From positions 1 to 33,043 of the forward strand of contig MPMZ01000034.1 in NCBI GenBank assembly GCA_002238765.1: DNA of 33,043 nt, written 5' to 3'. Under the pieces are notes generated by a model. The model was not told the origin of the DNA. It did not search any database and saw only the letters and a program-made list of their open reading frames with translations. The position numbers and the translations under genes are program-made. The stretch's first letter is position 1; each line of letters starts with the position of its first letter. Origin of the DNA: Nitrospira sp. bin75. GTDB lineage: Bacteria; Nitrospirota; Nitrospiria; Nitrospirales; UBA8639. Below, one piece after another: positions 18,996 through 21,667 of this stretch.

Positions 18996-20537
18996 CTACG
19001 ACGGGGCCGCCAAATTGACTCTTTCAGACAGGACGCGACGCAGTTCCACCATTCCCAACGTGTCCCGTGCACAATAGGCATGTAGCGCCGAGGCCACACG
19101 TTGACGCTCGACCCAATCGGTCACGGCAAACATCATTTTGTGATACATGGCCGAGGCGGTTGCGCCGTCCTTGATTTCCAGGTCGCCATAATCCAATGAC
19201 GGGACAAGGGCCGGCAGGACGGATTTGATTGAAAACGATCCCTGAAAATCAGGATGGTAATAATGACTTTGCAGCACGTCCAAGAGATCCCAAAGGCGTT
19301 CCCCGACTCGCAGCAAATCTTTCCGCAGACGGGGCACGGCTTCGGCCAGTGCCTTCACGATGTACAGTTCATACTCGGAGTAGACGCAGATACTCCCTTC
19401 CTCTCCTACGGACTCCAGCAGGCTCATGGCGATGTCTTCACGCGGATCTTTCTGTTCGGTACACAAATAGGCGCTATGCCTCAAAGATCCGTCTTCCGCC
19501 TCCGTATGATTCGACCACTGAATCGGTATGGGCTGATAGGGGTGAGTATGTGCATACAAGGGAACGGCGGGCATCACCGTCTCGAAATCCAAATGATGGA
19601 CCGGGTACCGGACCGATTGCAGAACCTCCGCCAGCTTGGGCGACATCCATTCCACGTTCTCCCGTATCCGTTGTTGCAAGGGCGCCAGAGAAACCTGAGC
19701 AGGAATCTCGTCGATGGTCTCAATCCCCTGTTGACGCAGACGACGCACGAGGTCTTTACGACCGGGAAGAAAATAGATCCACCTCGCCGGTTTGGAAGCC
19801 GTACAATGCGCCCAGAACGGGCATTCATAGGGAGCGTGGCAATGGTGATCCGGCTCGACGTCGGGAGCTCGGCTTTGCCCGAGCATCGCACGCATCTCAT
19901 CCAGGCGCGAAGGAATATCCGGCAGTTTTTCATGAATCGCCTCGGTCAGGTCTTCGAGCGCGAACAAGCGTTGCAGATCCACGTCCCCCCCGGGATAGGC
20001 ATACTGCCGATTCACGTGCATCAAGAACACCCCGTTCAGGTCAAGGCCGTTTCCTCGGAGCACGTGGGTTTGTACCGCCAGGTCATTGAGGTGTACGGAT
20101 TTCACGCGTGAAGCGGCTTTCACTTCAATCAACCTCCAGGCACCATCGACGCGCTCGATCACGTCCACCCGAACCAACGTCCCTTCGAATTGAAAGGCCC
20201 CTTCAAAAATCGCGGGGACGTTCGGATCAGCCATCAGGGCCGCCGTTTTTTCCAGGGCGGCAGTCGAACGGCGATGATTCTCGGCAACCAACACGCCGCC
20301 GGGAAAATACCGATGCGCGATTTCATTAATTTCTTTCCCCATGTCCAGCATCAATTGGCGCCGGTCATCAATATCGGAGGCCAATTGGGGGGCATGGATC
20401 TCCAAATACAACCGTTTGTGGCATTGAAGGCCGGACAGAAATCTGGATTTGGAAAGACGGGGAGATTGCGGATTGCGGACTGCGGATTGTGGATCGCCGG
20501 AAAGAAACCCGGATGTGGGATCACGAGGACTTGTCAT
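18996..20537 (-). CDS. DUF2779 protein: Cas4/RecB-like nuclease plus DEDD exonuclease-like domain
   Basis: 513 residues from the ATG at 20537. The N-terminal part is PD-(D/E)XK-like: LSKSRFLSGLQCHKRLYLE (28-46), then RVDVIE (Asp125) and the E-V-K core (Glu138, Lys140). Cys39 with Cys233, Cys239 and Cys245 (CHAPYECPFWAHC) form a Cas4/AddB-style Fe-S cluster set. The C-terminal DUF2779 domain (about 310-510) shows RNase-H-fold exonuclease signs: HHLDFET (Asp317, Glu319), VYSEYE and YCARDT (Asp492). DNA or RNA trimming or repair is likely, but the substrate is unknown. No CRISPR array or cas gene is nearby. The frame is open to 20777, overlapping the DUF4112 gene, so the downstream ATG was chosen; it has no clear ribosome-binding site. 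Codons 14-26 lie in a 7-bp tandem repeat. Confidence 0.82.
   Translation of the reverse strand: MTSPRDPTSGFLSGDPQSAVRNPQSPRLSKSRFLSGLQCHKRLYLEIHAPQLASDIDDRRQLMLDMGKEINEIAHRYFPGGVLVAENHRRSTAALEKTAALMADPNVPAIFEGAFQFEGTLVRVDVIERVDGAWRLIEVKAASRVKSVHLNDLAVQTHVLRGNGLDLNGVFLMHVNRQYAYPGGDVDLQRLFALEDLTEAIHEKLPDIPSRLDEMRAMLGQSRAPDVEPDHHCHAPYECPFWAHCTASKPARWIYFLPGRKDLVRRLRQQGIETIDEIPAQVSLAPLQQRIRENVEWMSPKLAEVLQSVRYPVHHLDFETVMPAVPLYAHTHPYQPIPIQWSNHTEAEDGSLRHSAYLCTEQKDPREDIAMSLLESVGEEGSICVYSEYELYIVKALAEAVPRLRKDLLRVGERLWDLLDVLQSHYYHPDFQGSFSIKSVLPALVPSLDYGDLEIKDGATASAMYHKMMFAVTDWVERQRVASALHAYCARDTLGMVELRRVLSERVNLAAPS
20464..20498. repeat. Five-unit 7-bp tandem repeat in the nuclease 5' end
   Basis: Units read GATTGCG, GATTGCG, GACTGCG, GATTGTG, GATCGCC on the plus strand. 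The unit is not a multiple of three, and no in-frame start codon lies between it and the conserved LSKSRF motif of the nuclease, so gain or loss of one unit would shift the frame. Confidence 0.85.
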
Positions 20538-21200: not shown

Positions 21201-21667
21201 GCCGTTTTCTTCAATTTACATGAAGGCAAACTCCCTTTCATGGCTGTGGATAACGTTCTCGAAATCTGAATTGACGCTTCAATCCTGCAATTGACACTTC
21301 CTGGGGTCTTATTTGTTTTGTCAGTCATGGCTTAATTTATTAAAAATAATAATAATCTTTATATATAATAAGTTATTTAAATTATTTAATCTTTTACATT
21401 AGCTTTATTTCATCTGCCATGCCACCTGAAATGTGTTCGATTCTATCAGCACATTTTGTTGATTACGTGTGGACCACCATGTGAATAGCCATTTCCAGTC
21501 AGACGCCATGGACCATCGACCAAGTTGCCTTGTTTTTGTGCATCTTGCATGAAAAATAGAGAAATTGTCGGATGACGCTTCGCCTGTCCTGAGCGTAACG
21601 GAGTGGAGTCGAAGGAAGCGTAGTCGAAGAGCTACTCCGACCTACTCTTCTTCACGACCCGGCTTCT
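21201..21667. other. 467-base gene-free region between convergent genes, with AT-rich island
   Basis: No convincing gene. It contains, in order: a near-identical pair of AATTGAC(G/A)CTTC boxes (21269-21280 and 21289-21300, 20 bases start to start); an extremely AT-rich stretch at about 21331-21412, made mostly of A/T runs in a mid-50s GC background; about 150 bases of ordinary sequence; and the long family A repeat (21567-21641). The flanking genes point inward, so this is not their promoter region. It could hold a small RNA, a protein-binding site or a remnant of acquired DNA. Confidence 0.7.
21567..21641. repeat. Expanded family A repeat (75 bp)
   Basis: Begins GTCGGATGACGCTTCGCCTG and ends GCTACTCCGAC. 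The core is lengthened by a partial duplication (GTCGAAGGAAGCGTAGTCGAAG). It lies 26 bases beyond the hemW stop codon. Confidence 0.8.

Follow-up and report, generated by a model that had tools for sequence, protein, structure and literature searches.

The window analyzed here is a stretch of 33,043 nucleotides of Nitrospira sp. bin75 (GenBank assembly GCA_002238765.1, contig MPMZ01000034.1). Its minus strand carries at positions 18996..20537 a DUF2779 gene of 513 codons, which is present in 49 of 59 related genomes and encodes a Cas4/RecB-like PD-(D/E)XK nuclease with a C-terminal DEDD RNase H-like exonuclease domain. Pfam PF11074 matches residues 314-436 with an E value of 1e-35 (123 bits; gathering cut-off, 23.3). 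The N-terminal half gives weak profile matches to TIGR03491 and Cas4, the best PDB fold matches of its model are Cas4 (E 4e-6) and AdnAB, and it represents a DUF83/Cas4-like PD-(D/E)XK domain with four cysteines. Invariant in 18 sequences are D125/E138/K140, C39/C233/C239/C245, and D317/E319/D417/D492. DUF2779 has been placed among the RNase H-like 3'-5' exonucleases with a DUF83 PD-(D/E)XK domain (PMC3985635), and the window's protein agrees with this family (F.17) in domain order and in the invariant catalytic residues of both nuclease domains; it is unusual only in its N-terminal lead, which contains an insertion. For the C-terminal domain AlphaFold reached a pLDDT of about 30, and the assignment of this domain therefore rests on Pfam and the literature; a sequence search for a solved structure found none. 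By sequence, the label "double nuclease" given in a first-pass annotation of this DNA appears sound.

Between the ATG start codon (20535..20537, minus strand) and the invariant LSKSRF motif, the gene contains an array of imperfect GATTGCG heptamers (CAATCCG in the sense of the gene) at 20464..20498, a feature not assigned to a strand. Its units read GATTGCG, GATTGCG, GACTGCG, GATTGTG, and GATCGCC, and the array is translated in the DUF2779 gene as DPQSAVRNPQS. TRF reported a period of 7 with 4.4 copies at 20464-20494 and a score of 48, the top score in the window, and the period-7 score of 16.2 exceeds the maximum of 12.4 among 200 dinucleotide-preserving shuffles of the whole window, so that the array is not a product of chance. 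The first-pass annotation had counted five units; the array is real, but the fifth unit is a partial match that overlaps a separate local duplication, and about 4.4 units is the fairer count. The units differ from one another and the longest exact period-7 run is 16 bp, i.e., the array is not a long, near-pure tract of the slippage-prone kind.

The same annotation had proposed that the repeat must be translated, that no usable start codon lies between it and LSKSRF, and that a change by one unit would shift the frame, and on these points it was right. Codons 2-42 of the 513-codon reading frame include no ATG, GTG, or TTG. The first TTG is codon 43, followed by others at codons 45, 52, and 62; codons 43 and 45 already belong to the conserved region. 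ATG recurs at codons 63 and 66, and all of these codons are past the invariant Cys39. Gain or loss of one 7-bp unit, computed on the window's gene, leads to a stop after about 58-59 codons. A frame-shifting repeat in a translated part without a downstream start is what is expected of a contingency locus, in which slippage of 7-bp units would toggle the nuclease within populations. A true precedent exists in neuO of Escherichia coli K1 / CUS-3, where 3-53 copies of AAGACTC vary among strains and produce many phase-OFF genotypes (PMC13001214). Both genes have 7-bp units that are translated at the 5' end of the coding sequence and whose copy number sets the frame, whereas the array described here has 4-5 impure units with an exact run of only 16 bp and is missing from most relatives.

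Comparison with congeners (Nitrospirales or Nitrospira MAGs; G000 is the window's own genome) showed the annotated N-terminus to be real, contrary to the alternative raised in the first-pass annotation that it is an accident, since close congeners, including those without the repeat, retain the same ATG and opening seven codons (MTSPRDP). In the orthologous DNA this start reads ATG-ACA-AGT-CCT-CGT-GAT-CCC, with differences that are mainly synonymous, and in three genomes (G006, G011, and G013) the stretch from the upstream stop to LSKSRF offers no ATG, GTG, or TTG other than this ATG. The array is absent in nine of the 10 close congeners, where MTSPRDP(T/S)R directly abuts LSKSRF; at these empty sites, the start codons are followed by (ACG or TCT)-CG(T/C) and then by CTT-TCC-AA(A/G)-TC. 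Alignment with G006, G010, G004, and others, in which MTSPR(D/Y)PTR runs straight into LSKSRF, delimits a 54-bp (18-codon) in-frame insertion that includes the array at 20460..20513 (minus strand; ends ambiguous by a few bases). The alternative suggestion that the repeat is a newcomer is thus borne out by the empty sites.

The tenth close congener, G005, belongs to another clade and contains at the same codon a separate heptamer insertion of 27 bp, likewise in frame. In a tree of the conserved part of the gene, the window's species groups with G004, G006, and G010 and G005 groups with G003, all four of which lack an array at this site, and two independent gains are therefore the simplest history. 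No out-of-frame allele was seen at the DUF2779 site among the 10 close congeners, a comparison between species with one consensus assembly each, in which standing variation within populations could be hidden. The distribution argues against a switch, as do the insert lengths of 54 and 27 bp, which are divisible by 3 but not by 7. The DUF2779 gene of G004 (L117 / L125, G004:C61) breaks into two frames around residue 255, i.e., away from the repeat site and in a genome without the array, by either a frameshift or an assembly error.

An assembly artefact, in which the array would be collapsed or chimeric and the true gene would have no array or one of another length, was also considered, because the genome is a draft of 115 contigs and dispersed repeats favor misassembly. 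However, the array of about 35 bp fits well inside one read, both flanks come from the same gene, the array has locus-specific substitutions, and a second species carries a comparable insertion at the site. We regard such an artefact as extremely improbable.

The conserved part of the protein begins directly behind the insertion with Arg27-LSKSRFLSGLQ (20426..20459, minus strand). Invariant columns at this protein start are R27, S29-S31, and G36-C39, and in distant relatives the lead before the invariant Arg27 is quite different in length and sequence. AlphaFold predicts residues 1-24 with a pLDDT of <50, an ordered fold from about residue 27, and a pLDDT of about 88 from residue 31. The variability of the lead across the family and its predicted disorder suggest that the repeat resides in a dispensable region. 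The same features bear on the possibility that the insertion alters the enzyme, either because the 18-residue lead or because the array as a DNA or RNA element tunes expression of the nuclease or binding of a partner. Two independent insertions at the same codon might be taken in its favor, and the insertion of a Rickettsia palindromic element into guanylate kinase altered substrate affinity (PMC2229807), but the lead before Arg27 is free to vary and predicted to be disordered, and most congeners do without the insertion. A functional effect of this kind appears very unlikely to us, and the array is probably without consequence for the enzyme.

The array is flanked by a near-duplication on the minus strand, whose upstream copy is located at 20496..20529 (core, 20496-20514) and whose downstream copy at 20430..20463 is the native sequence encoding RLSKSRFLSG. 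The two copies are identical at 26 of 34 positions (25/30 against the version of G010), and the 19-bp core at 16 of 19 positions, a value seen in 2 of 3000 shuffles (18/19 when the G010 version is compared). The array in NuoM is likewise flanked by near-copies of local sequence of 29-34 bp in G000, G003, and G011, and DUF2779 and NuoM are the two sites with a clear empty form at which such copies were found; none were recognized by eye at the DUF2779 insertion of G005 or at the ksgA array. This pattern suggests that at DUF2779 and NuoM a short stretch was duplicated, with the heptamers placed between the copies.

The heptamer is not confined to the DUF2779 gene. A search with the 20-mer GGATTGCGGATTGCGGATTG, allowing ≤3 mismatches, covered the window's own genome, congeners, and outside genomes. 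In the own genome it gave 59 matches, as opposed to zero with the reversed control. The matches group into 24 places, one of which (C71:31865) was discarded as an array, as the same 20-mer recurs in several congeners and is probably conserved sequence, leaving about 23-24 places. In most congeners the family is present but less numerous, and genomes outside the genus have 0-2 matches each, no more than the control. The same 7-bp unit thus occurs in tandem arrays at many places, both intragenic (AddB, NuoM) and intergenic, in some cases as facing inverted pairs (upstream of ksgA), with genome-wide placement based on pattern searches and individual loci rather than on a complete gene prediction. 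A defined element bounded by terminal inverted repeats and with constant ends, as known from MITEs such as the Rickettsia palindromic elements, was not found, as array lengths and ends differ at each examined site. Another dispersed repeat is present in the window at 21563-21645 (beginning with cttcgcctgtcctgagcgtaacggagtggagtcgaagg) and is matched by roughly 50 stretches of the own genome, with up to 98-100% identity over 36-48 bp.

Because 7 and 3 have no common factor, (CAATCCG)n encodes the same stop-free heptapeptide (NPQSAIR / QSAIRNP) in all three sense frames. The tested variants of the unit are likewise stop-free in the sense direction, CAATCAG has an antisense stop, and nearly all coding arrays are in sense direction. 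In AddB, heptamer arrays are found in frame at two linkers. Both linkers are occupied in G000, G003, and G012 (in G012, the second array is partly inverted), and G005 has an array at the second linker. AddB is open in every congener where it was found, with only a partial gene in G004. At least eight insertions, counting the AddB and DUF2779 arrays, are in frame, which at a one-in-three chance each gives a probability of about 1.5e-4, although the insertions are not fully independent. Neither the DUF2779 nor the AddB arrays included a disrupted allele in the one assembly available per species. The AddB-like gene of the own genome lies together with an AddA-like gene at L128:1764-8752 (G000:C115), and both contain arrays, at the two AddB linkers and at the AddA start; AddA also has a second repeat-like peptide, VLTRVEGPVLSNVEG. 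The N-terminal AddA array was not accepted as a coding example, since translation may actually begin at an ATG that immediately precedes LPDSH.

Heptamer peptides also occur in frame in the C-terminal tail of NuoM in G000, G003, G011, and G012. The number of units at the NuoM loci (L130 near 2694-2758, G000:C57; orthologues L162-L173) is 4 or 5, and the tail frames differ. The tail array comprises 33 nt in G003 and 26 nt in G011, exactly one unit apart, and the resulting frame change touches only the last residues. Slippage over evolutionary time is therefore real in the heptamer family, and this one-unit difference between species might speak for a switch at DUF2779. A facing inverted pair of arrays was detected in the intergenic region upstream of ksgA in G000 and G006 (L131 about 1561-1660; L179) and could form a hairpin; it is missing from the other congeners, of which G012 retains a stub. 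The arrays at KsgA and at a solute-binding protein were rejected as coding, as they are located upstream of the likely starts.

AddB, NuoM, and the region upstream of KsgA are unlikely switching targets, and the same argument led to phase variation being regarded as unlikely in the GGGAATC family of Xanthomonas (PMC4692102). Given also the empty sites, the frame-preserving insert lengths, and the impurity of the array, the on/off slippage switch envisaged in the first-pass annotation is not supported; we consider it highly improbable, and switching within populations is probably absent.

The heptamer family is a further case of the known dispersed heptanucleotide repeats. In Xanthomonas and Nostoc, GGGAATC and GGGGA(C/T)T heptamer repeats are dispersed (PMC4692102), and the likeness extends to many imperfect tandem arrays per genome, mostly intergenic with an intragenic minority, to some facing inverted pairs, to gene targets that are random in function, and to related species that do not share arrays at the same genes. 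In contrast, the unit GGATTGC of the current study has no GGG run, so that no G-quadruplex is expected, several arrays are in frame inside conserved proteins, and the empty sites are visible in congeners. Geobacter metallireducens has four tandem GGGACCG units at 49 places within and between genes (PMC2700814); the unit differs, and it is for the Geobacter elements that a regulatory RNA role was predicted. The TAACTGA repeats of Beggiatoaceae are another close precedent for dispersed heptamers, and a word search of a paper library for the heptamer unit itself returned nothing relevant. The precedent for in-frame insertion in conserved proteins is provided by the Rickettsia palindromic elements, reviewed with other in-frame MITE fusions in PMC2229807, which are also small dispersed repeats, both intergenic and fused in frame in conserved proteins, and apparently tolerated. 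In contrast to these palindromic elements of 100-150 bp, the arrays described here are tandem heptamers of 25-80 bp without common element ends.

Overall, the array in the DUF2779 gene is very probably a young, tolerated, and translated insertion of a genus-specific dispersed (CAATCCG)n family and not a phase switch. It would have been gained recently between the conserved start MTSPRDP and Arg27, probably accompanied by the duplication of some 30 bp of local sequence, and would now be translated as a disordered spacer of 18 residues. Its tolerance is explained by the hypervariable length and sequence of the lead, by a net insertion that is a multiple of three, and by a unit that is stop-free in the sense frames. 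That the same codon received an insertion on two separate occasions could point to more than coincidence and in this respect counts against a passenger, but a simple alternative would be a GATCC-like seed within the native sequence. A more far-reaching reading, which we think rather unlikely, would be that (CAATCCG)n is a self-spreading repeat suited to coding DNA, whose entry is accompanied by local duplications of about 30 bp and which repeatedly colonizes disordered linkers of DNA repair nucleases (two linkers of AddB and, twice independently, DUF2779), thereby serving as a source of new linker peptides in this genus of Nitrospirales.

A tandem repeat at a gene start whose unit is not a multiple of three is the usual signature of a phase switch, yet it can be a tolerated passenger, and one comparison at the genus level tells the two apart. 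DUF2779, AddB, and NuoM are conserved genes in which the states before and after entry of a heptamer repeat can be cleanly compared, and these cases bear on the origin and spread of heptamer repeats, which are common and little studied.
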